Assembly (NCBI GenBank): GCA_020058085.1
Contig: JAGVER010000014.1
Location: 1-33,746, forward strand
Length of the DNA: 33,746 nucleotides
Direction of reading: 5' to 3'
Source: Candidatus Omnitrophota bacterium
GTDB taxonomy: Bacteria > Omnitrophota > Gorgyraeia > Gygaellales > Profunditerraquicolaceae
The position numbers and the translations under genes were made by a program. The notes below the pieces were generated by a model. It did no database searches, had not been told where the DNA came from, and was given only the letters and a program-made list of their open reading frames with translations. Shown in pieces: positions 1-27,609 of this stretch (the first letter of the stretch is position 1; each line of letters starts with the position of its first letter).

Positions 1-160
1 GACTTTTGCTGCTCCCGGGGCTAAGCTCTCGGCTGCACTTGGAAGTGCACTTTCAACTCTTGCTACGCCTGGAGCTGCTCCTTCAACCCTAGATGCTCCA
101 GCACCCAAGCCTTCAACTCTTGCTGCTCCAGGAGCTAAACTTTCAACTTTTGTAGCAGCT
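1..160 (-). repeat. 30-nt / 10-aa tandem repeat (VE[SG]LxPGAAR) in the giant protein, running to the window edge
   Basis: ttcaac anchors at 52, 82, 112, 142 (exact 30-nt period). Translation KVESLAPGAARVEGLGAGASRVEGAAPGVARVESALPSAAESLAPGAAKV. Confidence 0.85.
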
Positions 161-3100
161 GCCACTTTATCTGCTGTTTTACCACTCCGAGCTAAAACTC
201 CCAATCCTGTAAATGCATTGTGTATAGTTAAACCTTTGGCAGCACCGCCTACTGCTGAAGCAATAAAATCGTCAGTACTCTTGATATTACCCGTCATAGC
301 ATCTGCGGCTAAATCAAACCCTGTAGTCGTAGCAACAGTCCCACCTAAAGCAGCCACTCTCGTTAAATTAACTTCTGTTATCCCAGCAACGCCCAATTTA
401 AGTGCTGTAGCACCCAATGCCAAAGGAGCAGTTACTGCAGCAGCTGCTAACTGGCCTGCGCCACTTTGTAATTTCTCCGCTTGAGATACATAATATAATG
501 TTTCTTTTTGGCCATCTGCTATACTCGCTGCACCCATCAGAATATCTCTAGCCTGCTTCTGCACCGCGGGATCATTGCTTAAAATATTTCCTCTTGCCCA
601 CAATACACCTTTACCATTATTGGCGCCGTCTAGTAAAACATCAACTCTGCGCGCTTCAGTATCTCGAAGATCTTGCGCTGTAGCTTTAGTATTTCCTATA
701 TTAGTGTAACCACCTAACCACAAACCAGCTTTTTCTGTCCATGTATGTTCATATAAAGCATTAGCTTTATTCTCTTGCAGAGAAGAAATTACATTCTGGC
801 TGCTTCTTAAGACACCTATATCTTCGTTAACGCTACTTAAATCTGCTGCACCATCTTTCTTATACACCCCGGGGACTTCGACCTCTACCTTCTGAAAGCC
901 GCCTGACGCATTAGGTTCCGAAGCCTTAACTGTTAAAATCGGAGAATCTATTGCACCATTCAATTGAGAAATGGAAGTTTTACCAACCACCTTACCAGCG
1001 CCATCTGTTTTAGTTACTACTGCTTCATTAGTAGCCGGCATAACTACTCTTTTTGTTTGTGTACCATCTGCGGCCACAGTAGTACGTTCTTTAGGAAGTG
1101 TTTTTAAATCTGCTCCGAACAAAACTCCTGTATTCACCCAGCAAGATTTACCATCCGCGTCTTTTGTTTCAACCCATCCCCTTGCATATGCACCAATTGG
1201 TTTCTCATAACTTACCTCACCCTTAAGAGGATACGCTAGAACAGAACGGTTCTCAGGATTCTGAACCGGTACTCTCCCTTGTAAAACATCTTCGCTAACT
1301 GAGATTTGCTTTAACATAGCTTCATCTCTTAATCGCTGCCCAGCTTCAATATTACCTGCTGTTCCTTTTAAACCAGAAGAAACTAGTAAAGCGTGTATTT
1401 GGCCTTTTGTAGATGTCTTACTAGCAGGATCATAGGTCTGCTCTAACGTCTGCCTTGTCTCACTACTTAAGCCTTTGCCAGATTCAATTTCGCCTATGGC
1501 CTTATCAAGAAGGACTCTTCTTTCATTAGCTATATCAATTCTTGAACGATCAACACCTTCGGGACGAGTAGCCCATTCAACCAACTTACCAGCATAATTC
1601 CAGCTACTATTAGCCCATAGCCCCTTGGCGCCATCGCCTAGAGCGATTATGTCTTTTTCTTTCTTTAACTCAGTTAATAATTGACTGTTAAATTCGGACT
1701 TAACGCGGTCCGTATTGAATTTATCTACAGCTGCTTTAAAAGCATCGTCATTTTTAACATCACCGGCAAAGCCGATCTGCTGTGCAAGTTTCTGACGTTC
1801 AGCCATAAAGTTCGCATTCTTAGCTACAACATCAGCATTAAATTTATCTATTGCGGATCTAAAAGCATTATCATCTTTAATATCACCGGTAAAGCCGATC
1901 TGCTGGGCGACTTTTTGACGTTCAGAAAAAATCTCAGCATTACGTGTTGCAATATCAGCATTAAATTTATCTATTGCGGTTCTAAAAGCTTTGTCATCCT
2001 TAACATCACCAGTAAAACCTATCTCCTGTGCGACTTTCTGGCGTTCGGCCATAAGGTTTGCATTCTTAGTTGCGATGTCAGCATTAAATTTATCTATGGC
2101 TACTTTAAAAGCATCGTCATTTTTGACATCACCGGTAAAGCCGATCTGCTTAGCTAGATCTTGACGCCTTAACAATAAATCAGCATTAAACTTATCAACT
2201 GCTGCCTTCAAAACAACATCATCTTTAATATCACCAGTAAAGCCGATTTGTCTAGCGAGTTCCTGACGCTTACCTAATAAATCTTTTTCATCTGCAAGCC
2301 CAGCCGCCATCGGCTCCTGCATTTTTCCTAACGTTAAATCTGCTTTCGGAGGCTCGGTCATTGCAAGTTTGGTATTATCTACTAAACCTGTTTCCATATC
2401 CCAAGTCCTGCCGTGCTGATCAAGTCCAAAATTATCACCGTAAGGAGATTTACTAATAGTTAATAATTCGCCGGTAGCCTTATCTTTGTATGCCGCATTT
2501 TCTATCTGCGTAATCTTCCCACCAGTAACCAAATAATTACCAGATATATTCATGTTGCCTCTTGATTCATCGCCCTTAAATGATCCGTCGGGCAATAATA
2601 TATTGCTATCCTTCACAGAAATTATCTTGTCATTACCCATCTGCAGAGTAACAGGCCCCATCTTTACATCGTTAAAAGAATTATATTTATAACTTAAATT
2701 ATCTGCCATGGTTACGGGATTAAAATTGAAACTACCTTTTTCATCTAAACCCATAATCAATGGCATCTCGGCGTTCTTACCAATAACAAAATGGTTTACG
2801 TTCGGGAAAACGCTATTGTGTTCCAGCGCATAACCCAACGCATATCCACCAGCAGCACCACTAGTTGATCTTCCTGGTTCATCAAAAAGCAGATCCCTAG
2901 CTAAATAATGGAATATCGGTTGGTCTTTGTTGACGACCTGGCCGTCTTTAGTAAAGAGACGCGTATCCTGAGCTACGATAGTAGTATTTTGCGAAGCGAT
3001 CCCCGGAGCAGACTGCTGTATAGTAAAACCTTTACCAGTCTCCCCTAAGTCGCCAAAATTAACTCTTGTGTCCGGAGCCTTCCAACCTTTATCACCTAAA

Positions 3101-6100
3101 GCAGGATTCATCATCTCATCATAACGCCAGAGGTTCTTAGCCTGACTAACAAGACCTGTCTCTGTAGTATGTGTAAAATAATTATCCTTACCTAAAGCGG
3201 TCTGCTGGATAAGCCTACCGGTATCTTTACTTAAGACTAGCTGATCGATTGCAGCGCTATAATTAAAAGTAATAGTATTATTCTTCTGATTAGTCCCAGC
3301 GCCATACCAGATTGTCTCAAGATGGCTCTTACCATTTGCATCTTTAATCTCTATTTGTCTAAGCGGCAGGGCAAATGTACCATCTGGAAATTTAATCCCT
3401 GCCTCGAGCATACCTTTTTCATTGATTCCGGCGCGCACATTGCTGTAACTTAATTTTCCTGCCTCAAGTACAAAAGACCCACTATATTTACCAGTCTTCT
3501 GATCAAAATTTTCCTGCAGGAGAATTCTATTTAAGGTAAAGTTTGGAGTAATTCCACCATTAACATTTAATACTCTCGCCTCAAATGGATCATTCAATCT
3601 AAGCGGCGAAGAACTCACTCCACTTTTAGAGAGACGCGGAGTCTGCAAAGTGGCTTGGCCAAATACTGCCACAGGAAGTAAAGTATCCTTGCCTTGTATT
3701 TTTTGCGTAGCTAAAATCTGGCCTAAGCGAGGAGCAACTTGATTGCTTTTTTGCATGCTCCACCAATTAGCCATTGGCCCGGCAAAACTTGCATTAACTA
3801 ACTTTTCACCCTGAAGGACACTAACTGTATTCTTAGTCATCCAGCCCTGATCAATAGCCTGCATCTTCGGGAACGCTCTATCCTCTATACGAATACCACT
3901 CTGATAATCAATCTTGCCAGGAGTTGTGGCTGCCCAGAAATTTCTCTGGGTGTAAAGTTCTACCCCTGAATCATTGACAAACTTTGTAGCTATAAGATCT
4001 GGCATTGACGAATTCATCACAAAACCATTACGTATACCAGTACTCTTCTCAAAAGCAGATCTTGTTGCAGTCGGAAGATTACCTGTCCAAGTAGCACCAT
4101 TAGATATTGCTAAATCATTAAAGAAAGGTTTGGCTAAAGCCCATTTGCCATTTTCAAGTTGTACCGGTTCCTGCAAGCTAAAGCGCGCTGAATTAAACTC
4201 AACCCAAGCTGGATTATTCATTGGAGTGCGCTCGTAGTCTTTTACTACGCCAGTGCTACCATTAGAAATAATCTTTACTGAAGAATCTCCTATAGGAACT
4301 TTCGCAACAAGAGTTTCTTGATTGGCCCTAAACGCCTGGCTACTATGTAACCACATACTGGGAATTTTAGTTCCATCAATAGCATCAATTTTCCCTCCCC
4401 ATATATTAAATTGCGTCCCGCCAGGAGTAATCGCCGTACCTTCAAAATGAGCGCTATACCAAGAATTGCCAACTATTTTATTCCATTGATCAGTACCCTT
4501 CTTAGCAATATCCGAAGCAGTAAGCATGTTGAATGCTTTATTATAGGTATAATCAAATTTATACTGCTCATTAGGAAGCGTGCTATCGAATAATTTACTT
4601 TCAGTAGTGAACTGATTGCGTCCGGCTAATAATCCACCCATCTGGCCGCTAGTTACGGCTGCAAAAGCATGTGGGTCCGTAGGCTGACCCACAATCTGCA
4701 TTGAGCCAAGAGTTGGACTGCCAATTTTTGTGCCCAGGCTAAAATTATCAGTTATTCTTACACCACCAGCAGGAAGAATCACTGGTTGCTTTGTATAAGG
4801 ATCGATCTTTGTTTCTTGGGAGAAAAATCCTACATTATTCCATTTTGCTCCGGGGGAATATGTAGGCGCGAAGTCTGCGCTATAATTCGTGGCACCTGTT
4901 TTATTATCAAGGCCTATTGGAGTAACTAACATACCCGCAACGCCTTCATGTATATTAACGCGAGAATTTAAGGCGATTGGACTAATCCAATTTAACTCTA
5001 CCCCTTCTCCGGATATAGCTGGTGCAGACATACCGGAACCACTCATCTTAAAAAATGGTGAACTACTATAAAGTATCTGATTTTTTGGGCTAAATAAATT
5101 TATTGAACCATTGGAAAATAACTTTGCATCCCATTGATTCAAATCAATCTTAATCATCTCCGGTGCGGTAATTGATCTTCCGCCGAGCATCTTACTAGCG
5201 AAGGCGCTCATTTCAGTTGAAGTCAAACCAGTTATATTCTGCGTAAATGTTCCGGAGATATTCTTTGCCGAGAAAGCATCTTTACCTACAAAATAATTTT
5301 CAGCAAAGACTCCAGCGTTTCTAACATCTGTGGTTAAAAGACCTTTGCCGTTATCAAATACTGTCTCTTGGAAATGGATATCGCCAATTAGATTTCCGTT
5401 AATAACTCTTTGTGGCAGAATATTCCCTGAGTGGTCTTTGTAATTAAATCCAAATCCCGGGCCCGTAATCTGGCCGTTCATAATAGCTGCGCCGTTTAGA
5501 TTAATCCCGGCACCAGTCTGGAAAGGAATAACGTTTTTATTATTTTTAAAAGCTTCAAAGGTCTTTAAATCAAAGGCCTTATTATCAACAAAGCCCACCT
5601 GGCCAGCCAAGCTCAAACCGTTTATCTGGTTAACTTTTTTGGTCCAGACAAAACCATTAGTGATAGTATTAGTTATTTTAGTTAAATCTGGGCTAAGTGT
5701 TGAAACCTGCCATAAACCAGTATTAGGCCCAATTTTATGGCTACTTAAGAAAAGATCCTTATTCACTCCCGAAGCAACTTTAGCCACATTAAAGGTGCTC
5801 GACAAATCGCTGCCAAAAACATTAAATTTGTAAGGCCCCTCAACTACAAATCCGGCAGCTGCGCCTGCTCGGTTAAAGTAATCTCCGGAAACCTTTATAT
5901 TGCCAATCTTTGGCTCAAAGAAAGTAAAATAATCCGTATTTCTCGGGGTTGCAATTCTTAATTCCGCTATATTATTGCTGTTAACTTTATTGGCGAATTT
6001 AACCGGATCCCATTGATACGTTTGGCCTGTTGCGAAGTTCTTCCCAAAAACTCCATTTTTCGCTATATTCGGAGTTTGCATGAATAATCCGGAATTATAT

Positions 6101-8991
6101 TTCCCTGCCTGATCTTGGAAAGGTAAATGCGCTAAAGTATCGCCTAAGCGAATACCTAATGTAGGAGCCATAGGAGTAGAGGCAATAAAAGTCGGCCCAT
6201 TTTTAGTATTTACGCTGATACCATTACCAACGGGTGTCCATTTAGAATGTAGCGAAGTGGCATTTAAATTCCAATTGCTTTTTGTCCAATTAGAGTTATT
6301 GTAGCTGCCAGTATGGAAGAAATTAAGCTTACCCCACGTATCCCATCCTCCTTGTAAGGAAGGCCCACCTGCGCCTGCCCCAGCGTTACCTTTATTTTTG
6401 CTAAGGCTGTTTAGCGAACCAAACAAAGCCGCGTCTGCACGGCTATAGCCTTGAGAATAAAATTGGGGGTTAGAAAAAGGAGATTGTACAATATCAGCGG
6501 CTTTCTGATAAAAAGGATTTGTGTTGGCAACATTAAAAGTAGCAGCTCCATAAAAACCTCCGTTATCAAATATACTTTTCCCTGGAGTAGCCGCCACATA
6601 ATAAGGGCTTATCATTCCTGCGTGGTTCTGACTGAAAGTCCCCATATTTACGTTACCTGCCCTTAAAGCATTATCCCATCCAACGACTCCTGTAGGCATA
6701 GTTCCTGCTTTAGAAATACTAGGCATTCCGATCGAGTTGGGTGCTAAAACACCCGCTTGCATAAATTTAGTCTCGGCAAAAGTCACTCTCTCGCCGCCAG
6801 GCAGAAATGATTTTGGAGTTGTAGCATATCTAGTCTGCCAATTTGAGCCAGTAATAAACCCTGTATTAGGAGCTGTTTGCTTTAGTTTACCAACATCAAG
6901 AGCCACCCAATCAAATACCTCATTAGTCCCCTGCTTCTGAATATTCCAACTGTTAGACATATTATAAGTAGCAGAGCCATTAAGGGAGGTTACAGAGTAT
7001 CCATCAACAACCCCTGGTCTTCCGGTAAGTTGAGCACCTAAATTATTTTTCGCTCCTGAATATGGAGAATGGGTGCCCATATTAAAAGACTGGCCTATAT
7101 TAGGCCCAACGGTTAAAATCTTTTGTTGTTCCAAGGCCCGAGTTTGTGCAAGAGAGCTGTTATCCCGGAATATTTTGCTGGCAGCTGTACTTGTTGCGTT
7201 ATATTGTTCTGGGGTTAAACCAAAATCTTGTGTGAATGTTTTTGCTAAATCCCTATGCAGAGATCCATCTGGACCGCCTGATATGACTGCGTTTGTGTTA
7301 GGTAGCGCTCCAACCCCAGGGCCGCTTATATTAACACCGTTCCTGTTCTGCATAACAGCGAACGGACCTACGTTTTGCAGTTGCGGTGCTCCGTTACTAT
7401 TAGAAGACATAAGACTTACAAGGCCGGAAAAATTATCCTTAAATTTATTTACTTCAGATAGAGTGGGGTTTCTGTGTAAGTCAGCCGTAAAACCATTAAC
7501 CATGGTACGCGCCTTCTCATCGGTATATCCGATATTCTTAAAAACTCCTACCGCATAATTCTCCACTTTAACAAGATTTCCTTGGATATTGTTACCCCTT
7601 GAAAGATCAAAATAAGCATTCCGCGTAGCAGGATCACTTATTCTTACTGCGATTTGGGCAAAAACATCATCACGAGCAATTAAAGGAGGAACCGATGATC
7701 CTCCTTGGCTTGTTGATCCCATAGACCTTGTTGATGGCGCAGACGTATAAGTTTGCGCCGGAGCTGTATAAGTATTAGTATTCGCGCGATTATTATTTAA
7801 AACTGATTGCACTGATGACTGAACCGGAGTTATCGGAGAAGTATAGGCTTTCGCGGCTGTTGGCACATTATTATTTAAGCCTAAATTCTGTTGCACACTA
7901 GCTGGTAACCTAGCAGTTGATACCGTCGGTGAATAAGTTCTTGTGGATGCGCTACTCGTAGGAGCAGTATATGTGTTATTCATATTCATAGCTGACTGAA
8001 CTGAAGCTGGCAGCCGCGCGGTTGAAACGGTCGACGCAGCCGGCGGCGTTGGCGGTGGAGTGGAAGCAGGAGCAGGATTAGGCGGACCCATAACATTCCC
8101 AGCTCGCCAGTTTGCTTCGCTGTAATCATCGCCAGCACCCATTACTTCCTTAGCTTCTTTATCTGACAAAACCTGTGTCGTTGGTATCGATTTGCTTACC
8201 AAGGCATATCCGCTAAAGCGATCCTGGAATTCATTTAAAGGCAGAAATTCTTCTTTATGCTCATCAGAAAAATAAACTTTGTCTTCTGTGATTTTAGTAA
8301 CTAAAACGTAATGATCACCTGTAAAATGCACAATAAAAGGCGCTAAATCCGCAAGCTCTTCAGGCTTAGCCAAAGCTAATTCTAATTTTACCGGGGTAAG
8401 TTTGGCCCCGAAATATTCTCCTGCGCGCGCAAGGGCATACAAAGAATTCTTGATAACCTTAGGCTCTCCTTCAGGCTTAACCACCCCATTAAGAATATCA
8501 ATAGTCAGGGCCATAACCGCTACATCCTGTTCAGCTACACTTAATGAACGATAACTTAAATAATCAAAAAGCGCTTTGGAACCACAAGGTTTGCCTTGTA
8601 GCCAATTATAAAGCTCATCAACTCTCTGATTGGACATTTCCAAGGGCTTATCTAACTCTATGGTAAGATTATATGAGATTTTGATGGAAGTTACGGGTTT
8701 ATTAGCTAAATCTTTAAGGATACTTCTAACTGCTTGGGGAATCTCTAGTGTTTCGAGGTTTTTAAGGCTACCCGGGATAAATCCAGAGTTTAGAGGCATA
8801 CCCATGGCTGGCTTATTCCAGAGTACGCGCCAATCATACTCTACGGCCTGGGCTACCTGCTCAGGTAAGAAGACAGCTATAACAATAAAAGCTACCACGC
8901 GGATCCAAGCCTTAAAACTAGAGCGAAATTCTAACTTGGCATCTTCTTCGGTAGCTATCCTGTCTTCAATATCTTTATTGGGTTCTATCAT
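1..8991 (-). CDS. Giant secreted/surface protein with N-terminal signal/TM segment and C39-like cysteine peptidase domain; 3'-truncated by the window edge (at least 2997 codons)
   Basis: ATG at 8991 (MIEPNKDIEDRIATEEDAKLEFRSSFKAWIRVVAFIVIAVFLPEQVAQA...). Frame checked triplet by triplet on about 20 scattered 60-nt lines and at both ends with no stop found; not every codon was checked. C39-like residues: GKPCGSKALFDYL (Cys), FTGDHYVLVT (His), VYFSDEHK (Asp). Absent from the ORF track because there is no stop in the window. Confidence 0.88.
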   Translation of the reverse strand, partial: MIEPNKDIEDRIATEEDAKLEFRSSFKAWIRVVAFIVIAVFLPEQVAQAVEYDWRVLWNKPAMGMPLNSGFIPGSLKNLETLEIPQAVRSILKDLANKPVTSIKISYNLTIELDKPLEMSNQRVDELYNWLQGKPCGSKALFDYLSYRSLSVAEQDVAVMALTIDILNGVVKPEGEPKVIKNSLYALARAGEYFGAKLTPVKLELALAKPEELADLAPFIVHFTGDHYVLVTKITEDKVYFSDEHKEEFLPLNEFQDRFSGYALVSKSIPTTQVLSDKEAKEVMGAGDDYSEANWRAGNVMGPPNPAPASTPPPTPPAASTVSTARLPASVQSAMNMNNTYTAPTSSASTRTYSPTVSTARLPASVQQNLGLNNNVPTAAKAYTSPITPVQSSVQSVLNNNRANTNTYTAPAQTYTSAPSTRSMGSTSQGGSSVPPLIARDDVFAQIAVRISDPATRNAYFDLSRGNNIQGNLVKVENYAVGVFKNIGYTDEKARTMVNGFTADLHRNPTLSEVNKFKDNFSGLVSLMSSNSNGAPQLQNVGPFAVMQNRNGVNISGPGVGALPNTNAVISGGPDGSLHRDLAKTFTQDFGLTPEQYNATSTAASKIFRDNSSLAQTRALEQQKILTVGPNIGQSFNMGTHSPYSGAKNNLGAQLTGRPGVVDGYSVTSLNGSATYNMSNSWNIQKQGTNEVFDWVALDVGKLKQTAPNTGFITGSNWQTRYATTPKSFLPGGERVTFAETKFMQAGVLAPNSIGMPSISKAGTMPTGVVGWDNALRAGNVNMGTFSQNHAGMISPYYVAATPGKSIFDNGGFYGAATFNVANTNPFYQKAADIVQSPFSNPQFYSQGYSRADAALFGSLNSLSKNKGNAGAGAGGPSLQGGWDTWGKLNFFHTGSYNNSNWTKSNWNLNATSLHSKWTPVGNGISVNTKNGPTFIASTPMAPTLGIRLGDTLAHLPFQDQAGKYNSGLFMQTPNIAKNGVFGKNFATGQTYQWDPVKFANKVNSNNIAELRIATPRNTDYFTFFEPKIGNIKVSGDYFNRAGAAAGFVVEGPYKFNVFGSDLSSTFNVAKVASGVNKDLFLSSHKIGPNTGLWQVSTLSPDLTKITNTITNGFVWTKKVNQINGLSLAGQVGFVDNKAFDLKTFEAFKNNKNVIPFQTGAGINLNGAAIMNGQITGPGFGFNYKDHSGNILPQRVINGNLIGDIHFQETVFDNGKGLLTTDVRNAGVFAENYFVGKDAFSAKNISGTFTQNITGLTSTEMSAFASKMLGGRSITAPEMIKIDLNQWDAKLFSNGSINLFSPKNQILYSSSPFFKMSGSGMSAPAISGEGVELNWISPIALNSRVNIHEGVAGMLVTPIGLDNKTGATNYSADFAPTYSPGAKWNNVGFFSQETKIDPYTKQPVILPAGGVRITDNFSLGTKIGSPTLGSMQIVGQPTDPHAFAAVTSGQMGGLLAGRNQFTTESKLFDSTLPNEQYKFDYTYNKAFNMLTASDIAKKGTDQWNKIVGNSWYSAHFEGTAITPGGTQFNIWGGKIDAIDGTKIPSMWLHSSQAFRANQETLVAKVPIGDSSVKIISNGSTGVVKDYERTPMNNPAWVEFNSARFSLQEPVQLENGKWALAKPFFNDLAISNGATWTGNLPTATRSAFEKSTGIRNGFVMNSSMPDLIATKFVNDSGVELYTQRNFWAATTPGKIDYQSGIRIEDRAFPKMQAIDQGWMTKNTVSVLQGEKLVNASFAGPMANWWSMQKSNQVAPRLGQILATQKIQGKDTLLPVAVFGQATLQTPRLSKSGVSSSPLRLNDPFEARVLNVNGGITPNFTLNRILLQENFDQKTGKYSGSFVLEAGKLSYSNVRAGINEKGMLEAGIKFPDGTFALPLRQIEIKDANGKSHLETIWYGAGTNQKNNTITFNYSAAIDQLVLSKDTGRLIQQTALGKDNYFTHTTETGLVSQAKNLWRYDEMMNPALGDKGWKAPDTRVNFGDLGETGKGFTIQQSAPGIASQNTTIVAQDTRLFTKDGQVVNKDQPIFHYLARDLLFDEPGRSTSGAAGGYALGYALEHNSVFPNVNHFVIGKNAEMPLIMGLDEKGSFNFNPVTMADNLSYKYNSFNDVKMGPVTLQMGNDKIISVKDSNILLPDGSFKGDESRGNMNISGNYLVTGGKITQIENAAYKDKATGELLTISKSPYGDNFGLDQHGRTWDMETGLVDNTKLAMTEPPKADLTLGKMQEPMAAGLADEKDLLGKRQELARQIGFTGDIKDDVVLKAAVDKFNADLLLRRQDLAKQIGFTGDVKNDDAFKVAIDKFNADIATKNANLMAERQKVAQEIGFTGDVKDDKAFRTAIDKFNADIATRNAEIFSERQKVAQQIGFTGDIKDDNAFRSAIDKFNADVVAKNANFMAERQKLAQQIGFAGDVKNDDAFKAAVDKFNTDRVKSEFNSQLLTELKKEKDIIALGDGAKGLWANSSWNYAGKLVEWATRPEGVDRSRIDIANERRVLLDKAIGEIESGKGLSSETRQTLEQTYDPASKTSTKGQIHALLVSSGLKGTAGNIEAGQRLRDEAMLKQISVSEDVLQGRVPVQNPENRSVLAYPLKGEVSYEKPIGAYARGWVETKDADGKSCWVNTGVLFGADLKTLPKERTTVAADGTQTKRVVMPATNEAVVTKTDGAGKVVGKTSISQLNGAIDSPILTVKASEPNASGGFQKVEVEVPGVYKKDGAADLSSVNEDIGVLRSSQNVISSLQENKANALYEHTWTEKAGLWLGGYTNIGNTKATAQDLRDTEARRVDVLLDGANNGKGVLWARGNILSNDPAVQKQARDILMGAASIADGQKETLYYVSQAEKLQSGAGQLAAAAVTAPLALGATALKLGVAGITEVNLTRVAALGGTVATTTGFDLAADAMTGNIKSTDDFIASAVGGAAKGLTIHNAFTGLGVLARSGKTADKVAAATKVESLAPGAARVEGLGAGASRVEGAAPGVARVESALPSAAESLAPGAAKV
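1741..2290 (-). repeat. Five in-frame repeats, about 123 nt / 41 aa (one spacing 102 nt), in the giant protein: RQxLAxQIGFTGDxKxDxAFxxAIDKFNADxxxxNAxxxAE
   Basis: Anchor tgacgttc/tggcgttc/tgacgcct/tgacgctt at 1793, 1916, 2039, 2162, 2264 (spacings 123, 123, 123, 102). Confidence 0.9.
8220..8610 (-). other. C39-like peptidase domain in the giant protein (Cys codon 8584-8586, His codon 8311-8313, Asp codon 8263-8265)
   Basis: Order Cys-His-Asp with motifs PCGSKAL, GDHYVLVT and YFSDEHK, as in the peptidase C39 family. Confidence 0.72.
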
Positions 8992-9128
8992 TTATTTTAT
9001 AATACTATATGCGAAACAGGGAGAGCATAACTCCCCCCTTACCCCCACCGCTTTCCTATATTGTGCGTGAGTATCTTTCATATGTCTTATAAAAGTGTTT
9101 GTAAAACCTTTTACTAAGCCACTAAAAT

Positions 9129-9165
9129 AAAAAACCGAACTGTCAAAACCTCGTCGGTAATTCGG
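9129..9165 (-). terminator. Terminator-like hairpin, probable riboswitch expression platform
   Basis: Minus strand CCGAA-(21 nt)-TTCGG-TTTTTT directly after the aptamer; TTAC in the loop could alternatively pair with upstream GTAA (P1-like). Confidence 0.55.
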
Positions 9166-9262
9166 CAGCTCGGCTATCCTCTGAAAGTATTTACTCTGAA
9201 TTTTAGGACCCGCGGCTTTGCGCCCCAAGATCTCTCTTGGTTTGCCATTTCGTTACTTGTTT
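9155..9262 (-). ncRNA. Cyclic di-GMP-I (GEMM-I) riboswitch aptamer in the leader of the giant gene
   Basis: Minus strand: GGCAAACC-(aagagagatctt)-GGGGCGCAAAGCC-gc-GGGTCCTAAA-...-GGATAGCCGAGCTGCCG. This matches the GEMM consensus GGCAAACC...GCGCAAAGCC..GG.CCTAAA...GG.AGCCG. Confidence 0.85.
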
Positions 9263-9275
9263 CAATTACATCCAA

Positions 9276-9303
9276 AGTATAACATGCAGATCGTCGCTGT
9301 CAA
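9276..9303 (-). promoter_or_regulatory. Sigma70-like promoter for the riboswitch/giant gene
   Basis: TTGACA-N16-TATACT on the minus strand. Confidence 0.7.
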
Positions 9304-13713: not shown

Positions 13714-14601
13714 TTAGAAGGAAGTGGGAAGCATGTCGCCTTGGGAGAATTTGATAATGATTGGGCCGGCAACAATAATCATAATCGCCGGAAGAATGCA
13801 GAAAACAAGCGGAAAGAGTATCTTAAGCGAAGCCTTGATCGCTACACGCTCTCCATTCTGAAAACGCTGATTACGCGTATCATCTGAAAGGTTCTTAAAA
13901 GCTTCTTCTATCGGAGTACCCATTCGCTCAGCCAAAACAATTATCCGGGTAAAACTAGAGATATCAGAAAGTTGAAGCCTCTTAGACATATCCTTAAGCG
14001 CCTCGGAACGAGGCTTGCCTACCTGCACTTCGCTTAAAACAATGCCTAACTGTTCCATAAACGGATTATAAATACTTTTTTCAATAACCCATCTAATCGT
14101 CGAAATCAGGTCTGCTCCGGCGCTGATACACATATGCAGAAGATCTACGGTTTCCGGAAAACACCTCACTATATCTTCTTTTTTCTTCCTGATCTTTTTC
14201 CACATTAAAAAATCCAGCAGAAAAAACCCTATAAAAAAGGCAAAAATAACATAGAGAGGCGAAATATGCCTTAAAAAAATATAGGCCAAGGCGCCAAACA
14301 AAATAGAGAAAAAAATCTTTAGGCCAACCAAAACAAATAAATTCATCTCTATCCTTAAGATTTCAGCTTGATGCTTAAGCTTATTAAGATAGGTTAACCT
14401 TTTATAAACAGGGTTAATAATAAAAGCGAAAGGTTTAAGCGCCCTATTTAACACTTCCCCTTGAAGACTAAATCCAGCAGGCTTCTTCTTATCCGGATCA
14501 GCTTCTTCTCTTAAGCGCAGAAAAGTCTTAATTTGAATAAATAAGCCTGAGCCTATTAAGAAGACGGAGGAAGCAACTAAAATAAATATTACTACAAACA
14601 A
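13714..14601 (-). CDS. tadC: Type II secretion F-domain protein, TadC-like
   Basis: CFPETVDLLHMCISAGADLISTIRWVIEKS...ALKDMSKRLQLSDISSFTRIIVLAERMGTPIEEAFKNLSDDTRNQR, multiple TM segments. Confidence 0.88.
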   Translation of the reverse strand: MFVVIFILVASSVFLIGSGLFIQIKTFLRLREEADPDKKKPAGFSLQGEVLNRALKPFAFIINPVYKRLTYLNKLKHQAEILRIEMNLFVLVGLKIFFSILFGALAYIFLRHISPLYVIFAFFIGFFLLDFLMWKKIRKKKEDIVRCFPETVDLLHMCISAGADLISTIRWVIEKSIYNPFMEQLGIVLSEVQVGKPRSEALKDMSKRLQLSDISSFTRIIVLAERMGTPIEEAFKNLSDDTRNQRFQNGERVAIKASLKILFPLVFCILPAIMIIVAGPIIIKFSQGDMLPTSF

Positions 14602-14613
14602 ATATATCTCCTT

Positions 14614-15462
14614 TTAAAACTTCATTGTGCTGATTCTTTTAATAAAAATTATGCCGACTATCTCCAACCCTATGGCTAATGCCAAAAGTTTACGCCCCAA
14701 ATCTGTCTGTAACATTACATCGAAGTGGCCTGGGTTTTGCTTATATATGAAATAGGCAAACCCTATAGGCAGGATCATCATGATTATACCCTGCAACCTT
14801 CCCTGAAGGGTCAATGTCGCTATTTTCTCTTTTAACTTTAGATTATCACGAATAGTATCGGTTAAGCGACTTAAAACCAACGGAAGATTACCTCCCGATT
14901 CGCGGGCGATAAGTACAGCGGTAACAATAAGGTTTACTTCTTCAATAGGAATACGCGTCCGCATTTTCTTTAAAGCAAGCTCCATGCTCACACCCAATTT
15001 ATTCTCACTTATGATAAGGCCAAACTCTTGAGAGGTAGGCGCAGGCATCTCTTCACATAAAACTTCGATTGATTGTAAAAAACTTAAACCCGCCTTTAAT
15101 GAAGAGGATATAATCATCAAACTGTCGACTAGCTGACTACGGAATTTTTTAAGGCGTTGCTGCTTTGCTATACTGATTACTAGATTAGGCAAAATCAGGC
15201 CAATTATAAGGCCTATAAAAGCTCCAATCATATGCCTAGCCAGAATCAGGCCGAGCCCAGAAAGAATAAAAGGGAAAAGATAGAAAAGTAGCATTTTCTT
15301 CTTTTCCCAGAATATAAATGATTCCTCGAGTGTCGCAGAGATCTCTGTGGCTCTTTTATCTTGAGCCTTACCGTATTTCGTGGCAAAATACGGCAGAATA
15401 ACTTCCGAAATAAAAATTACCAATAATACTACCGAAGCAAAAACTGTTAAATTAAGCAACAT
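14614..15462 (-). CDS. tadB: Type II secretion F-domain protein, TadB-like
   Basis: FRSQLVDSLMIISSSLKAGLSFLQSIEVLCEEMPAPTSQEF...LIARESGGNLPLVLSRLTDTIRDNLKLKEKIATLT. Confidence 0.88.
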   Translation of the reverse strand: MLLNLTVFASVVLLVIFISEVILPYFATKYGKAQDKRATEISATLEESFIFWEKKKMLLFYLFPFILSGLGLILARHMIGAFIGLIIGLILPNLVISIAKQQRLKKFRSQLVDSLMIISSSLKAGLSFLQSIEVLCEEMPAPTSQEFGLIISENKLGVSMELALKKMRTRIPIEEVNLIVTAVLIARESGGNLPLVLSRLTDTIRDNLKLKEKIATLTLQGRLQGIIMMILPIGFAYFIYKQNPGHFDVMLQTDLGRKLLALAIGLEIVGIIFIKRISTMKF

Positions 15463-15645: not shown

Positions 15646-16934
15646 TACCTTCTCCTCTCTTTTTTCGCGTAAAAAATATCCACGATAGAGCCTGAACCCG
15701 GACTAACATAGTTTTGATAAATCATAATCTTTGCCCCGGATGAATCCGAGTCATAATCAAGCAGGTAACTATTTTTAACTATCTCACTTAAATCAATCCT
15801 GCTCCCGACAAATAGGCTAGGCACCAAAACATCCCCGCTATAATTCTTAGTATACTCGTCAGAAGTTTTCTTTGCGTCCATCTCGAATATCAACTTCCAC
15901 CCCGAAGTAGCCATCTCCTCAAGGTAAAATTTACGTGCCTCTGATACCGTCATGGGCACAAGATAAGAAAGGTTCCCGTTCTTAGCTGCACCTGACCAGC
16001 GTACGCTCCCTTGGGGACGAGGAATATCGTTAAAATCAGACCCATCTACATTATCCTCTCTAGGCAATATCGCAAGAGCAAACGGATTAGCTTCCGCTTC
16101 GGTCGTCTCATTCCTATCTGCATATTTAACTATTTTAACTTCGCAGCTATTATCCGCTCTGGAAATTAAATATATCTCAACTGCCATATCACTTCTCTCG
16201 AACCTTAGGCGCCGATATACCAATAGTCTAAAATTCATATCGTCCCTTAGCTCAAATCCATTCCTTTGAAAAAACTTGTCATAAAAACTCTCCACCTGCT
16301 TAGAAGTATTTTTACTATGATATATCTCCCCCGGGCCAATTCCGGCGCATCCTGAACCACAAGATGAAAGTATATCTTCAGTTATAGGTTTAGAGTCTGG
16401 AGGGGGCGGAATATCAATCGGCGAAAGAGCCTTCGAAGGCCTTACCTTAGACTTAGCATAATGAGTATATTTTGGAATCTCTACATCCCTAGTTCCTAAA
16501 GATTGCTTCTCGACTAAAGAATGCATATCCTTTAAATCAAGGGGTAATTCCGAAGCAAGATATTCATCGATGACCACTTCAGTCCCATGGCCCTCTAAAT
16601 CAAAAAGGTTTATATCTATTACCAAGTTATCCCTGTCGAAACGCAAACGCCTCGACCCCTCAAGTCTAATCTCCTTATCTTGACGATAGAGAAAACCATT
16701 CTTCCCCAGAGAATCTTTAAATTCATGCTCCAGACGGCTTTGATCAAGCCCGCTATTTACACGGTATACCCCCATTTTGCCGAAAGAACCTCTTGCATCA
16801 TTATCTAAATCAATGATCTTCTCCAGGTTGGGAACTTCGAGGCTTAGCTCATCATAAGCATGAACTAAGGCAAGGGAAGATAATATTAAAACGCCTAAAA
16901 ATAGGCTAATTTTGAAACTATATTTCCTATTCAT
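15645..16934 (-). CDS. Exported protein with two clearly similar domains and a third more divergent one, embedded in the Tad operon
   Basis: N-terminal signal sequence. GFLYRQDKEIRLEGSRRLRFDRDNLVIDINLFDLEGHGTEVVIDEY resembles GFELRDDMNFRLLVYRRLRFERSDMAVEIYLISRADNSCEVKIVKY; third SGWKLIFEMD...KIMIYQNYV. Confidence 0.75.
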   Translation of the reverse strand: MNRKYSFKISLFLGVLILSSLALVHAYDELSLEVPNLEKIIDLDNDARGSFGKMGVYRVNSGLDQSRLEHEFKDSLGKNGFLYRQDKEIRLEGSRRLRFDRDNLVIDINLFDLEGHGTEVVIDEYLASELPLDLKDMHSLVEKQSLGTRDVEIPKYTHYAKSKVRPSKALSPIDIPPPPDSKPITEDILSSCGSGCAGIGPGEIYHSKNTSKQVESFYDKFFQRNGFELRDDMNFRLLVYRRLRFERSDMAVEIYLISRADNSCEVKIVKYADRNETTEAEANPFALAILPREDNVDGSDFNDIPRPQGSVRWSGAAKNGNLSYLVPMTVSEARKFYLEEMATSGWKLIFEMDAKKTSDEYTKNYSGDVLVPSLFVGSRIDLSEIVKNSYLLDYDSDSSGAKIMIYQNYVSPGSGSIVDIFYAKKERRR

Positions 16935-18271
16935 TATTGTATAAGCAGCGGATTCTGTACTAGCTCGGTCTCAAAAAGATGCCTATCTGCATCAAACCAT
17001 GAGCCCGGATCGCCCCAAGCGCCTTGCATAAGATTGTATAATGTCGGTTCAATGGTCGAACCATTATCCACAAAAGCATGGCCAGCAGATCTTGCGACTA
17101 TGCCTCTCGCCCCGCCGTATTGGAAATTCCAGATACTCATATTAGTATCCTTTTTATACCGTTTTACTCGCAGAGTAATAGGAGCATTTGTAGTATACTT
17201 TTCCATATCGCGCCCGGAAAATGTATAGCCAACAGGCAAATCAAGCATCACCTCGGCATAAAATCCAGCAACCGAAGCTGCATAAGCTAGGCATTTAATT
17301 TTTCCCCACCAACCATGACATTGGCCATTTCTCACGTACTTCATATATGCTCCCCAAAAAACAAGACCAGCACCGATAGCGGCAACCATCCCGTTTTCAG
17401 TCCAAGTTAATTTCTTAATCGGGTAGCTACTTCTTCCAGTTACCACTACCTCAACATAGTTATCTTCTAACAGATACAAAAATGGAACTCTTTTATCAAA
17501 ACTGTTCACAAAAGATTCGTCATCTTTCTGGCTCCAGCCATAGCCAGAAGTGACAATTGGCAGCGACGGCACCCCGGGTACTATCTGACCTATCATCCAG
17601 CCATATCCGGTAACAGGATGACTCATAAAACGAGAAAAACCAGTCTGGTTTATCTCGTGAGCCATAAATTGATTAGTATACCAATCATATGGAAGAGGGT
17701 AATAATTCTTATATTTCTTCCCTGGATCTATCCCTTCATCAACCCCTGCATTACCAAAAGCATCGGCTAATGCTTTTTGTTTAGCGCTAGACCAAGTAAT
17801 TACCCCATTCATGTTAGCTTTTATCAGGCTAAACTGAAAACCTATCAGGTAAGGAACATATAATTTTATCGCCGCAATCAGATCATTTGGATACCTACCA
17901 AGGTTTCCCGAGGCTGTATCACTGCCTCCCGTTCCCAAAAGGTGGCTTAATGAAATCCCTGGAAGTGTAATATGAAGAGTATCTCTACCCAAAATAAATA
18001 TCTCCGACATCCTCGCTATTAGAACTATTGCATTCGCGCACCAAGCGTCACTTTCAAGGCCTAGCCCTAGGAGAAAACCGCTTAGAACACTCGCAGCCCC
18101 CAGAGAACCCGCATCCGCGGCATTAGAGACATCTGTCTTAAATATGGCCAATTTACCCAAATTAGCAGTAATCATAGCCATGATAATAATGATAACAAGA
18201 ATAGCGATTAGGAAGGGAAAGATCTGCCCTTTCCTATAATTTGCTCTATTCTCCGCAAAAAAGATAAACAT
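16934..18271 (-). CDS. TadG-like pilus assembly protein
   Basis: N-terminus KGQIFPFLIAILVIIIIMAMITANLGKLAIFKTDVSNAADAGSLGAASVL, typical of TadG-like proteins. Confidence 0.8.
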   Translation of the reverse strand: MFIFFAENRANYRKGQIFPFLIAILVIIIIMAMITANLGKLAIFKTDVSNAADAGSLGAASVLSGFLLGLGLESDAWCANAIVLIARMSEIFILGRDTLHITLPGISLSHLLGTGGSDTASGNLGRYPNDLIAAIKLYVPYLIGFQFSLIKANMNGVITWSSAKQKALADAFGNAGVDEGIDPGKKYKNYYPLPYDWYTNQFMAHEINQTGFSRFMSHPVTGYGWMIGQIVPGVPSLPIVTSGYGWSQKDDESFVNSFDKRVPFLYLLEDNYVEVVVTGRSSYPIKKLTWTENGMVAAIGAGLVFWGAYMKYVRNGQCHGWWGKIKCLAYAASVAGFYAEVMLDLPVGYTFSGRDMEKYTTNAPITLRVKRYKKDTNMSIWNFQYGGARGIVARSAGHAFVDNGSTIEPTLYNLMQGAWGDPGSWFDADRHLFETELVQNPLLIQ

Positions 18272-18280
18272 GCATACTCC

Positions 18281-18544
18281 TTAACGCAAAATTATTCCGC
18301 TGGGTCTCCCTTCAAAAACCCAATCATCAGTTAATTCAAGCGGTACTTCTAAATAAATCCCAGCAGTCGTATCATTAGCTTTTCCTGCTATCATTCTTTC
18401 CAGCTGGTAATTATTATTGCGCCTGGCATAATTAGCATTAAACCAGATCCATATACGCACAAGCCCGACTACGAAAACTAAGAGGACCCCAAATAGAAGA
18501 ACAAAATCCAAAATTGCCTGTGACTTCTCTCTCTTATTAATCAT
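18281..18544 (-). CDS. TadE-like/class III pseudopilin
   Basis: MINKREKSQAILDFVLLFGVLLVFVVGLVRIWIWFN; likely true start is ATG 18544 (overlaps upstream stop), not the 18655 of the ORF track. Confidence 0.72.
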   Translation of the reverse strand: MINKREKSQAILDFVLLFGVLLVFVVGLVRIWIWFNANYARRNNNYQLERMIAGKANDTTAGIYLEVPLELTDDWVFEGRPSGIILR

Positions 18545-19247
18545 GTGGCACATCCCAACTTTCCGAATAGTTATATACTTGTACATCACCGAAAAGACGA
18601 GGCTCTTGTACGCTATAACGAGGTGTTGGAGTATTATCATCTCCAGGATTTTCATCTATATTTGTATTGATGCGCGTATGGAGAAAACCAAAAGAAGTAT
18701 CAACTACACTAGCATTTTTATTATAATCTATATCTTGATTGCTCTCTTGCTTGCTTAAATTATAATTATATACTCCAACCCTATTATCATCAACCTTATA
18801 CACAGAAGTAGGGGTAGCTATCTTATTGTCACTTTCTTGCCCTGTAGGGCTATAGTGATATTGATCGACCGTCGGAAGTTCTATGGCCGGCGCATTATTT
18901 ATCTGCCAATAAGCATACATGCCTTCATCTGATGTGCCGTGAGGGCCAGCCACGCCCTTTGACCAGGTTACATTATAAGAACTCTCAGCAGTAGACTCTT
19001 TTCCCTGAAAAAAACCAGAATCAGCACTGGCAGAATTATAGCTCTTCCTAAATGTATAAATCGCAGTCCCGTTCTGGTCATAAGCTGTTTTCAATGCCTT
19101 GCGAAAAGAAACCATCTTATTCTGTTGCGCCCTGCCTAGAGATTGGCCGAAATTCATTACAAATGAAAAAGACATTAAGATCAAGACGCCTAAAATAGCC
19201 AGCTCCGCCGCTGCCTGTCCTCTATTATTAACTAAACCTATCCTCAT
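18537..19247 (-). CDS. TadE/F-like pseudopilin, large
   Basis: NNRGQAAAELAILGVLILMSFSFVMNFGQSLGRAQQNK. Confidence 0.72.
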   Translation of the reverse strand: MRIGLVNNRGQAAAELAILGVLILMSFSFVMNFGQSLGRAQQNKMVSFRKALKTAYDQNGTAIYTFRKSYNSASADSGFFQGKESTAESSYNVTWSKGVAGPHGTSDEGMYAYWQINNAPAIELPTVDQYHYSPTGQESDNKIATPTSVYKVDDNRVGVYNYNLSKQESNQDIDYNKNASVVDTSFGFLHTRINTNIDENPGDDNTPTPRYSVQEPRLFGDVQVYNYSESWDVPHD

Positions 19248-19258
19248 TTAAGCCCCCT

Positions 19259-19576
19259 CTATTGCCAAGATGTAGAGTCTGATGTAGTAGTTGCGCTTGC
19301 ATCAATAACTGCCCGCACCTTACCTTTGCGCTCAAGAAGCTTAGAATCCACGTTATAAATAGTTGTGCTTGTCGCTGCGCCTTTCTGCTGATGGTTCCAA
19401 CCGCCTTCATCTTGAACATCATTGCCCCACATCGACCACAAGAGGTAATCAGTTGTATGCAGAGTCTTAGAGGTAATCGCCCTTTTGACAGATCCGATAA
19501 ACATTGCAGCTGCAATTGTAGCAACCGCAAAGACCGCTGTCCACATCACCAGGCTATATCCTCTCCGGTTAAACAT
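19259..19576 (-). CDS. Class III-like pseudopilin (divergent)
   Basis: MFNRRGYSLVMWTAVFAVATIAAAMFIGSVKRAITSKTLHTTDYLLWSMW. Confidence 0.7.
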   Translation of the reverse strand: MFNRRGYSLVMWTAVFAVATIAAAMFIGSVKRAITSKTLHTTDYLLWSMWGNDVQDEGGWNHQQKGAATSTTIYNVDSKLLERKGKVRAVIDASATTTSDSTSWQ

Positions 19577-19577
19577 A

Positions 19578-19880
19578 TTACCACTCCCTACTAAAAGAAT
19601 CGACGGTTTCAGTTTTTTGCGACGAAGCTATAGCCGGAAAAATTACTTCACTTTTTATCCCATCTGCTGAAGTAGTTATAGAAATACTACTATTATTAGT
19701 AGAGATTACTGAAGTAGTGTGCCCCGGAGCATATTGCTGCCCCACAGTATCCGCCTCTGCCTTAAGCCTGCCTTGATATCCTCTTTTAATATAGAACTGC
19801 ATAATCAGAATAGCGCTCAAGATCACAGCAAAAAGAATAGAATACTCTAGCAGGCTCTGGCCTCTCTTGCTCAAGCCCAT
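19578..19880 (-). CDS. Class III signal peptide pilin
   Basis: MGLSKRGQSLLEYSILFAVILSAILIMQFYIKRGYQGRLKAEADTVGQQY. Confidence 0.82.
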   Translation of the reverse strand: MGLSKRGQSLLEYSILFAVILSAILIMQFYIKRGYQGRLKAEADTVGQQYAPGHTTSVISTNNSSISITTSADGIKSEVIFPAIASSQKTETVDSFSREW

Positions 19881-19897
19881 AAGATCACTTCTCCTTA

Positions 19898-20338
19898 TTA
19901 TGGAAGATCGGGATCAGTAAAATCCGTTACGGTAGTAGTTGCATAATCGCTTAACCTTGCCTTCTCCAGGCTCGCAGATTCTGTCTTGCTCTGCGATTCA
20001 GCCGTTACTACTCCGCCTGTCCTAGTATTCAAAGAATATGCACTTTTGTCTAAAGTTCCTTGGACAGTAACACCAGAAGGCACTTGACCTGAAAATTGGC
20101 TCATCACCGCAGTAGTAGTAGCTACTTCAGTAACAATGTTTTGATCTCCTGCCATCTTCTGCTCATCCTTTATAGTCGTGCTACTAGCGGAGAATTGATC
20201 TCCCATGCTATCGGCAGATCTTTTTAAAGAACCCTGATAACCTCTTTTCACAAACGACTGCATAATCAGCAAAACAGCGATAACTACAGCCAGCAGGATC
20301 GCATATTCCAAAATTGACTGACCTTTTCTTGTAAACAT
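19898..20338 (-). CDS. Class III signal peptide pilin
   Basis: MFTRKGQSILEYAILLAVVIAVLLIMQSFVKRGYQGSLKRSADSMGDQFSAS; paralogue of the 19578-19880 product. Confidence 0.83.
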   Translation of the reverse strand: MFTRKGQSILEYAILLAVVIAVLLIMQSFVKRGYQGSLKRSADSMGDQFSASSTTIKDEQKMAGDQNIVTEVATTTAVMSQFSGQVPSGVTVQGTLDKSAYSLNTRTGGVVTAESQSKTESASLEKARLSDYATTTVTDFTDPDLP

Positions 20339-20358
20339 CCTCTCACCTCCTAAAAGAA

Positions 20359-20736
20359 TTAATCATTCACATTCGCCTCTAATGTCTCGACGCTAACTGC
20401 CTCACTTGCAGTAGTCTGTTTTTGATATTTCCTCTCTGAACCACCCTTCTCTAAAACCTGCACATTCTTATAAACATCGGCACCGCCCTGTAATGTAGTC
20501 TTTGAAACTTCCTGTGTATAAAGAGGAACCACATTATCCGCTCCAAATCCCGCCAACAAATCAGTACCCGACCTCGTATCAACAGCTGCTTTCATAAGAT
20601 AGTCGCTAGCTTGCTGATTTTTATTACGGATGGCTCCCTTCAGAGAGACTGACAAAAAACCCGCGGCAACTGCCGCCACCAATGCAATCAAAATAGCATA
20701 TTCTGCTGTTGATTGTCCTTTTACCTTTAATAACAT
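20359..20736 (-). CDS. Class III signal peptide pilin
   Basis: MLLKVKGQSTAEYAILIALVAAVAAGFLSVSLKGAIRNKNQQASDYLMKA; GGAGG upstream of ATG 20736. Confidence 0.82.
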   Translation of the reverse strand: MLLKVKGQSTAEYAILIALVAAVAAGFLSVSLKGAIRNKNQQASDYLMKAAVDTRSGTDLLAGFGADNVVPLYTQEVSKTTLQGGADVYKNVQVLEKGGSERKYQKQTTASEAVSVETLEANVND

Positions 20737-20763
20737 CTTAGCCACCTCCTTTTATTTTCAGAT

Positions 20764-26011: not shown

Positions 26012-26012
26012 A

Positions 26013-27599
26013 TTAATCCAATTTATAAGCTATTGGTACTTCTATCCAAAGATCCTCTAAATCTATTGCCGGCGGGAATGGTGGATAAGAAGGTATGTCT
26101 CTGGCAGTTTTTAACGCATTATCATCTAGTGTCTTATAACCTGAAGAACTTACCACCTTAGCCCCCAGAAGCTCTCCTTTATAGGAAAGTTTGAGGCCTA
26201 ACTTCACTGTTCCCTGGAAACCTGCGCCTTTCCCGGCAACAGGATAAGCAATATTCTCTAAAATGCGCATCTGCACTACTTGAGAATACTTAAGAGTCGG
26301 ATCAAGCGAAGCTTCATCTATAATAGGCTTTTTAGTTTCAGCCTTAGCGTCGGTTACTCTTTTGCTATCAGCTTTTTTCTCACTGACTATCCTAGGTGTA
26401 AGCGTGATAAAAAGCTCTGAATCATCTCTTGTCGAGGCGCCTTTTCCCGATTTGGTTTCTCTCATCCTAAAAAACATACCTAATACCGGGACATCAGCAA
26501 GCCAAGGGAATTTACGTAAATCTTCCTCGGTCTTCTGCTTTATTAATCCTCCTATAGCCATAGTCTGGCCATTATCAAGATAGAGCTCTGTATTGGCAGT
26601 ACGCTTAGTAAATGGATAAGCCAAAGCATAAGACGTGCTAACAGCTGTACCTACCTCGCTCACCTCTACCCCTAAAGCAATGTATATACGATTATCTTCT
26701 TTTACAGTGGGTTTTATATTTAATTTAATACCATATTCCTTATATTCGACACTGCCCGGCGTAGCTGTTGTCCCTGTGGTACCTCCGCCAGTTACCGAAG
26801 CGCTAAGAATTGGGACTTCTCCTCCGACCAAGAGCTTTGCCCCCTTGCCGCTGAGACAGGAAAGGCGCGGACGGGAGAGAACACGGGCCTTTCCTTCTTG
26901 GACTAAAGCATCTAATGTCAGATTAAAAGCGCCGCGGCTAACATTACCTAAGCTAAATAACTTACCCCATGTCGTCCCGGTTGTAGCGCCAGAGGCTAAT
27001 TCAGTAATGGTCATCGAGCCTGGCCAAGTAAATCCCAGTTTTTCACTGGACCCTTTATTTAATTCCAAAACCTGCACATCAATTTCAACCACGGTCTCAT
27101 CTTCTTTAGTAGTAGTTAAATCTACTATCTTTTCTTTTAAAGGGCCCATTGCCAAAAATACCTTATCCCTATCTGCAGATGTGTTAAACTGGCCCAAAAG
27201 AAAAACTTTACCTTCCTCATCTTCTGCTTTAGTAGAAATCTCCGATAAATTAAGCTTAGCGATAGCTTTATCGATGCGGACTTTTAACTCCTTTGTATTC
27301 TCACTGAAAACCCTAATTGTATAAGCTTGCTCACCGAAATTATCCCAGAATACTAGCGTGGTATCTCCTACGGCTTTAGGCATAATAGTCATCTCTTTAT
27401 TGCTTACCTGCGCCACATCAACGATACTTGGATTACCGATAGCAATACGCGTGGGCTTATTTACAGAGATCACGTGCGTCGCGCCCATATATATTTTAAT
27501 TTCTTCTTTCGCTGTCTCGCTTAAAATGCGGCTTTGATTTAGGAGGAAGAGCACGTTCACTGCGGCCAAAAATATAACACCAAGGATTTTTTTTATCAT
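26013..27599 (-). CDS. cpaC: CpaC/RcpA-type outer-membrane secretin with C-terminal TonB_C-like domain
   Basis: IYMGATHVISVNKPTRIAIGNPSIVDV; VLSRPRLSCLSGKGAKLLVGGEVPI...GGLIKQKTEEDLRKFPWLADVPVLGMFFR; tail FQGTVKLGLKLSYKGELLGAKVVSSSGYKTLDDNALKTARDIPSYPPFPPAI. Confidence 0.9.
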   Translation of the reverse strand: MIKKILGVIFLAAVNVLFLLNQSRILSETAKEEIKIYMGATHVISVNKPTRIAIGNPSIVDVAQVSNKEMTIMPKAVGDTTLVFWDNFGEQAYTIRVFSENTKELKVRIDKAIAKLNLSEISTKAEDEEGKVFLLGQFNTSADRDKVFLAMGPLKEKIVDLTTTKEDETVVEIDVQVLELNKGSSEKLGFTWPGSMTITELASGATTGTTWGKLFSLGNVSRGAFNLTLDALVQEGKARVLSRPRLSCLSGKGAKLLVGGEVPILSASVTGGGTTGTTATPGSVEYKEYGIKLNIKPTVKEDNRIYIALGVEVSEVGTAVSTSYALAYPFTKRTANTELYLDNGQTMAIGGLIKQKTEEDLRKFPWLADVPVLGMFFRMRETKSGKGASTRDDSELFITLTPRIVSEKKADSKRVTDAKAETKKPIIDEASLDPTLKYSQVVQMRILENIAYPVAGKGAGFQGTVKLGLKLSYKGELLGAKVVSSSGYKTLDDNALKTARDIPSYPPFPPAIDLEDLWIEVPIAYKLD

Positions 27600-27609
27600 T
27601 CTCGCTCTC

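Follow-up and report, generated by a model that had tools for sequence, protein, structure and literature searches.

This analysis concerns a very long gene of a Candidatus Omnitrophota bacterium that starts at position 8991 on the minus strand of contig JAGVER010000014.1 (assembly GCA_020058085.1) and runs off the contig end. The whole stretch of DNA that was analysed, 33,746 nucleotides, is called the window. The gene product begins with a signal-like segment and a C39 (double-glycine) peptidase-like domain, followed in the same chain by a double-glycine-type leader motif. The gene is preceded by a cyclic di-GMP (c-di-GMP) riboswitch and, farther upstream on the same strand, by the genes of a Tad pilus (Table 1). 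The frame, the fold family, the motif, the riboswitch with its terminator, the synteny and the variability of the body are all read from the sequence. We consider it probable, though far from settled, that this frame encodes the beginning of a giant surface protein that is linked to the Tad system, gated by c-di-GMP and freed of its N-terminal module by self-cleavage.

Table 1. Features of the window, with the evidence for each (ORF, open reading frame; aa, amino acids; TM, transmembrane)
Feature	Position	Strand	Evidence
Giant ORF, 5' part, 2997 codons, open at contig edge	1..8991	minus	ORF listing, translation, coding bias
Basic N-terminus and single TM-like segment, aa 1-49	8845..8991	minus	24-ortholog alignment; hydropathy
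C39 (double-glycine) peptidase-like domain, aa ~100-268	8188..8694	minus	Pfam PF03412; Foldseek 6mpz/PCAT1/ComA
Catalytic-type Cys136 codon	8584..8586	minus	conserved 24/24
His227 codon	8311..8313	minus	conserved 24/24
Asp243 codon	8263..8265	minus	conserved 22/24
Double-glycine-type leader helix LSDKEAKEVMGA, aa 275-286; predicted cleavage after Ala286	8134..8169	minus	alignment, leader rules
Variable passenger start (from aa 287), Ser/Thr/Pro/Asn-rich linker with first VSTARLPASVQ copy (aa 322-332)	7961..8133	minus	translation
41-aa (123-nt) repeats	1714..2283	minus	repeat analysis
10-aa (30-nt) tandem repeats at visible end	52..152	minus	repeat analysis
c-di-GMP-I-GGC riboswitch aptamer (RF03167)	9160..9255	minus	covariance model, 60.7 bits vs gathering 59
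Promoter-like TTGACA-N16-TATACT	9276..9303	minus	same arrangement in 30/33 loci
Predicted terminator: 5' arm AGCCGAGCTGCCGAA within aptamer pairs with TTTGACAGTTCGGTT, then TTTTATTTT	9123..9175	minus	pairing vs shuffles
TadC and TadB (two T2SSF proteins)	13714..15462	minus	domain search
TadG/TadE-like proteins and Flp-type prepilins	16934..20745	minus	domain search, inspection, synteny
ParA-TadA fusion, secretin (with TonB_C), CpaB-like protein	23843..28464	minus	domain search, synteny
FIST sensor, histidine kinase, response regulator-GGDEF (motif GGDDF), divergent	30032..33655	plus	domain search, synteny

The giant frame and its constant front module

A preliminary description of this DNA had reported a continuous minus-strand frame running from 8991 off the left edge, and this was confirmed: the ORF listing and the translation give 2997 codons from the ATG at 8991 to position 1 of the window without a stop. 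This ATG is the earliest possible one, because the codon before it is TAA. Position 1 is also the contig end (G000:C7:1), and the frame is still open there. At the base composition of the gene, a stop-free run of this length has a chance probability of about 10^-88, and the codon-position bias in GC holds along the entire frame. The visible part measures 9 kb, being cut by the contig edge, against the more than 20 kb by which giant ORFs are classed. The closest named records are metagenome-assembled genomes of Omnitrophota, which supports the membership in this phylum proposed earlier. Besides C39, Pfam found no domain in the visible 2997 aa, and thus neither an RTX match nor an ATP-binding cassette (ABC) domain, so the combination of C39, transmembrane and nucleotide-binding domains that defines PCAT/AMS exporters is absent from this part. 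The giant frame of one close relative (L023, 10001-11700) is interrupted where a duplicated stretch contains a frameshift, through either decay or an assembly fault.

The front of the protein is its constant part, and this module was found in 183 of 386 sampled Omnitrophota genomes. Alignment of 24 orthologs revealed a strongly conserved segment resembling a signal, FxSxFKxWIRxxAFIVxAVFLPEQVAQA, whose A-x-A end probably represents an AQA-type signal peptidase site. The predicted N-terminal signal or TM segment is therefore present, with aa 24-42 being TM-like. The hydrophobic Ala/Gly helices described farther along are not clear membrane segments, because aa 24-42 alone pass the hydropathy threshold in the visible protein. 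The C39-like peptidase with intact Cys, His and Asp was recovered as well: PF03412 matches aa 183-267 with 34.2 bits against a cut-off of 22, Cys136, His227 and Asp243 are in place, and the three residues are retained in distant families too. Structure prediction, which had been suggested as a check, gave a C39 fold at moderate model confidence. Two AlphaFold runs with four aligned sequences reached a mean pLDDT (predicted local distance difference test) of 55 and 67, with 70-89 in the core of the first, and for both models the top Foldseek match in the PDB was 6mpz, the LahT double-glycine protease solved with a leader peptide; the PCAT1 and ComA domains stood lower in the match list. Exactly one C39 domain, the one on the giant, occurs in 23 of the 24 genomes.

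With Ala286 counted as position -1, the leader motif has L, I or V at -12, E or Q at -8, A or S at -7 and V or I at -4 in the 24 aligned sequences, while -2 is G in every one of them and -1 is A, S or G. The motif is present in 37/37 close relatives (35 found by script, two by eye), and the more distant G041 has a canonical GG (ISDTEAKGVLGG). C39 enzymes recognize GG, GA or GS together with hydrophobic residues at -4, -7 and -12 (PMC10885120). The window motif at aa 275-286, which lies in cis, fits these rules, with Ala or Ser at -7. Pairwise column identity is 1.00 at -2 and 0.88 at -1, then drops to 0.17 at +1 and 0.11 at +2. The 35,006-aa ortholog of G157 matches the window protein over aa 1-290 at 66% identity, and no similarity is detected beyond. 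To our knowledge, such an arrangement of a C39 enzyme and its site in cis has not been described before. The preliminary description had left the choice between self-processing and cleavage of other surface proteins. Self-processing in cis is the simplest reading and the better supported, because the site lies in cis in every close relative and no second C39 domain is present in 23/24 genomes; for the other option we found no evidence, no genome-wide search for trans substrates having been made. We rejected the idea of a polyprotein with many internal double-glycine sites, as three bodies hold 5, 3 and 4 motif matches and their shuffled versions hold 3.5, 4.6 and 4.7.

Riboswitch, Tad operon and divergent regulator

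The riboswitch sits between the promoter-like site and the ATG of the giant gene. We surveyed 36 distinct close loci, leaving out three records judged to be duplicates by their matching sequence lengths and aptamer scores, and found a c-di-GMP-I riboswitch less than 1.5 kb from the giant gene in 33 of them. In two others (G040 and G117) it lies farther upstream, at 3-7 kb, in the interval from the Tad genes to the giant, and the last locus (L018) has only about 640 bases of upstream sequence. In the more distant G041, about 10 kb separate the giant from a riboswitch upstream, which precedes most of the Tad cluster. As the genomes of the close group carry only a few c-di-GMP-I riboswitches each, we estimate that placement by chance would occur in less than 1% of cases per locus. 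The 3' arm of the aptamer pairs with downstream sequence ending in a T run in 30/33 loci, and at most 2% of shuffled sequences match or beat this pairing; the terminator arms vary between loci yet keep pairing. Terminator and aptamer are mutually exclusive, so the ligand should permit read-through, and the riboswitch is predicted to be a c-di-GMP ON switch. At what we take to be the ligand-contact position, relying on an assumed numbering of the aptamer, all 33 loci have G (GGCAAAC; A in variants that bind cyclic GMP-AMP). The GG[C/T]AAA core, likewise found in 33/33, suggests c-di-GMP rather than cyclic GMP-AMP as the ligand.

Shortly before the start codon (window 9020-9050) there is a G-rich element, GGGGGTAAGGGGGGAG, that may form a hairpin; it is also found upstream in L010, L011, L020 and L021. 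In other relatives a similar G-rich element is apparently translated as an N-terminal extension (GVRGKFYxxLLHIG). Downstream of the genome's second c-di-GMP-I riboswitch (G000:C5:49607-49701) are the genes of a short secreted protein and of a 528-aa protein that contains beta-propeller-like repeats.

Throughout the phylum, a Tad pilus operon precedes the giant gene. In the window the Tad genes lie upstream of it on the same strand, they comprise the components by which a Tad locus is recognized (TadA ATPase, TadB/TadC, secretin, CpaB, Flp prepilins and TadE/G), and the gene order recurs in relatives; the Flp prepilin and CpaB calls were made by sequence inspection and synteny. Among distant orders and classes, 17 loci have enough sequence, and in 13 of them TadC is found upstream of the giant at a distance of no more than 4 kb; in G041 the giant directly follows the TadB-TadC pair. 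The divergent regulator is conserved to different extents. G157 has the whole set of FIST sensor, kinase and response regulator-GGDEF, with a response regulator 88% identical to that of the window, whereas FIST and kinase are seen in G016 and G033 and FIST in G148, the stretches of these three ending there. Two further proteins of this region have no Pfam match. One, a secreted-looking protein of 666 aa (window 9554-11554), separates the riboswitch from the Tad genes and has a homolog in the same place in L023. The other, a protein of 606 aa (window 21581-23401) with much charged, coiled-coil-like sequence, is kept within the Tad operon in all examined relatives that cover the region.

Passenger bodies and possible function

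Beyond about 288 aa, the bodies of the relatives are unrelated to one another. For the window, the Ser/Thr/Pro linker with its duplicated VSTARLPASVQ is present in the translation as described, and the 41-aa and 10-aa repeats are real. The giant of G157 is a closed ORF of 35,006 aa on one contig (G157:C9:33540-138560, minus), that of G014 an open frame of 57,756 aa and that of G041 a frame of 42,913 aa, the latter two with one 100-N gap each. We do not count a 39,687-aa frame in G130 as verified, since it includes 40 kb of N. In the relatives, the first thousands of residues are rich in Ser, Thr, Asn and Gly and nearly free of Cys. The Cys content climbs from the N to the C terminus of the G157, G041 and G014 bodies (Spearman 0.69-0.85, p <= 5.2e-6), from about 0-0.2% to 1.2-1.5%; Asn falls in all three and Ser/Thr in two. 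Such a gradient might reflect a switch of compartment, or a gene that has grown by capturing sequence at its 3' end. The long bodies contain 46-103 TM-like segments. The distal part of the G157 giant holds intact cytosol-type domains in frame, those of a PEP-utilising enzyme, HMGL-type synthase, GGDEF (GGEE), ROK kinase, acetyltransferases, radical SAM, two sets of sigma-70 regions, patatin and glycosidase, and a MalK-type ATPase domain with intact Walker and signature motifs. At about 61-66% identity to the stand-alone MalK of every genome examined, that of G157 among them, this MalK-type copy looks like an old separate lineage rather than a recent copy. Starch synthase, CoaE, radical SAM/SPASM, glycosyltransferase and phosphorylase domains, among others, occur in G014.

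We infer ligand binding, export, cleavage and a surface role of the giant from this arrangement. The c-di-GMP level would be set by the divergent FIST-kinase-GGDEF regulator together with other sources. Bound to the 5' riboswitch, c-di-GMP would hold the 3' arm of the aptamer and prevent the terminator, allowing transcription of the giant gene. The signal segment would lead the N-terminus to the Sec pathway, and the C39-type domain would fold outside the inner membrane and capture the leader-like helix that follows in the same chain. A cut after Gly285-Ala286 would then separate the conserved front module of about 290 aa from the hypervariable passenger of thousands to tens of thousands of residues, which may act with the Tad pilus at the cell surface in making contact with other cells. 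Taken to its full extent, this would be a cell-contact system in which a c-di-GMP antitermination riboswitch releases a Tad-linked giant gene, and in which the protein's own double-glycine protease and cis site separate a constant, phylum-wide front module from a passenger that is otherwise unrelated, measures 10,000-50,000 residues and bears cytosol-type enzyme modules in its distal part. This fuller picture is possible and is proposed here tentatively.

Several observations weigh against a self-cleaving, c-di-GMP-gated surface protein. The 24 aligned sequences have no conserved oxyanion Gln of the papain type near Cys136 (W is found at C-6), so that we do not claim an active C39 peptidase as proven; Asp243 is replaced by E or S in two orthologs, and the confidence of the C39 models is moderate (mean pLDDT 55-67). 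The leader motif has drifted to FVWG[SND]xW in one group of distant families that kept Cys, His and Asp, so that cleavage is not general in this group. In 20 distant members a search up to 4 kb from the giant gave no riboswitch, the GGDDF motif makes the activity of the response regulator uncertain, and cytosol-type enzymes in the C-terminal halves of relatives are odd for a protein exported whole. The unconserved Gln, the replaceable Asp and a leader motif that drifts where the domain stays could all be explained if the C39-like domain were a binding module and not a protease, one that binds the leader-like helix in cis, or some other partner, and so serves as an anchor or a gate on folding, much like the inactive C39-like domains of HlyB-type exporters. 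Such inactive domains usually lack the Cys, whereas here Cys136 and His227 are invariant in 24/24, the triad persists in distant families, and -2/-1 are kept as GG, GA or GS with conservation dropping sharply afterwards. We therefore regard a pure binding role as unlikely, if worth keeping in mind. That the domain processes other proteins or peptides with double-glycine leaders in trans, its own site being merely one substrate, seems quite improbable. The C39 enzymes of ABC exporters do work in trans (PMC10885120), but it is the cis site that accompanies the domain in all close relatives, and the bodies are not enriched in further sites, no genome-wide search for trans substrates having been made.

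A different view of the passenger is that the giant is a weapon for predation or contact, with distal enzyme modules acting inside a partner cell as in large multi-effector proteins and the N-terminal module being merely a secretion handle. This would be compatible with self-cleavage. The intact GGDEF, MalK-type ATPase, radical SAM, acetyltransferase, patatin and sigma-like domains in the distal parts of G157 and G014 would fit, as would the rise of Cys along the chain, and PMC10066038 proposes Tad pili and giant ORFs as predation traits of the phylum. Against it, no delivery domain or target was identified, the 46-103 TM-like segments equally fit a membrane-woven coat, and the window covers the first 2997 codons only; we find the weapon explanation doubtful. 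Finally, the ORF might be an assembly product or a decayed gene, as the split frame of L023 and the 100-N scaffold gaps in two relatives could suggest. The chance of about 10^-88, the coding bias throughout, the occurrence of the module in 183/386 genomes, many with long frames, and the closed frame on a single contig in G157 make this extremely improbable.

Comparison with known systems

We retain the c-di-GMP-gated, Tad-linked and self-cleaving giant as our preferred reading. The preliminary description included neither the double-glycine-type site nor the riboswitch or the Tad/GGDEF context, and of these the riboswitch and the Tad linkage alter the picture most. Omnitrophota giant genes are among the largest known, and the linked features suggest how giant proteins are turned on and released. 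A constant module of about 290 aa with a predicted cut site, a predicted inducer (c-di-GMP) and a probable partner (the Tad pilus) can be tested with short constructs, for which the giant itself is not needed, and the front module offers a profile for locating the starts of giant genes across the phylum.

The family of giant ORFs is already known. The examples include a 39,678-aa protein of Velamenicoccus archaeovorus LiM, according to PMC10066038, and proteins of up to about 85,800 aa, according to a preprint cited in PMC12057145. The gene described here and its relatives share with them the phylum, a very long ORF, TM segments, few annotated domains and a proposed role in contact or predation. 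What is new is the cis leader motif, the riboswitch, the Tad/GGDEF context and the variability of a body with cytosol-type enzymes, as linked features. The main text of PMC10066038 mentions neither a peptidase module nor c-di-GMP control of giants, a dedicated giant-gene preprint lies outside this comparison, and priority for single elements is uncertain; nor did we find in that part of the paper a statement placing a giant gene behind a Tad operon. The C39 domains of PCAT/AMS exporters (LahT, PCAT1, ComA) have the same fold, Cys-His-Asp and GG/GA/GS leader rules. In contrast to them, the window domain is N-terminal on its probable substrate, behind a signal segment and without an ABC transporter, and its motif follows in cis. 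A literature search found no paper on riboswitches in Omnitrophota. The gathering-score aptamer, the G in the GGCAAAC core and the terminator as expression platform are shared with known c-di-GMP-I riboswitches (RF01051/RF03167), whereas the target here is a giant Tad-linked gene.

LapA/LapD/LapG is a c-di-GMP-controlled adhesin system. Another, controlled by a riboswitch, is that of CD2831 in C. difficile, as described in the abstracts of PMC6447587 and PMC6200980. The present case differs from both in having the protease built into the chain itself. Neither LapG/LapD nor a type I exporter was shown here, LapG not having been searched for. What these systems would have in common with the giant is that the level of c-di-GMP decides on the display of a large surface protein, with a protease as part of the logic.
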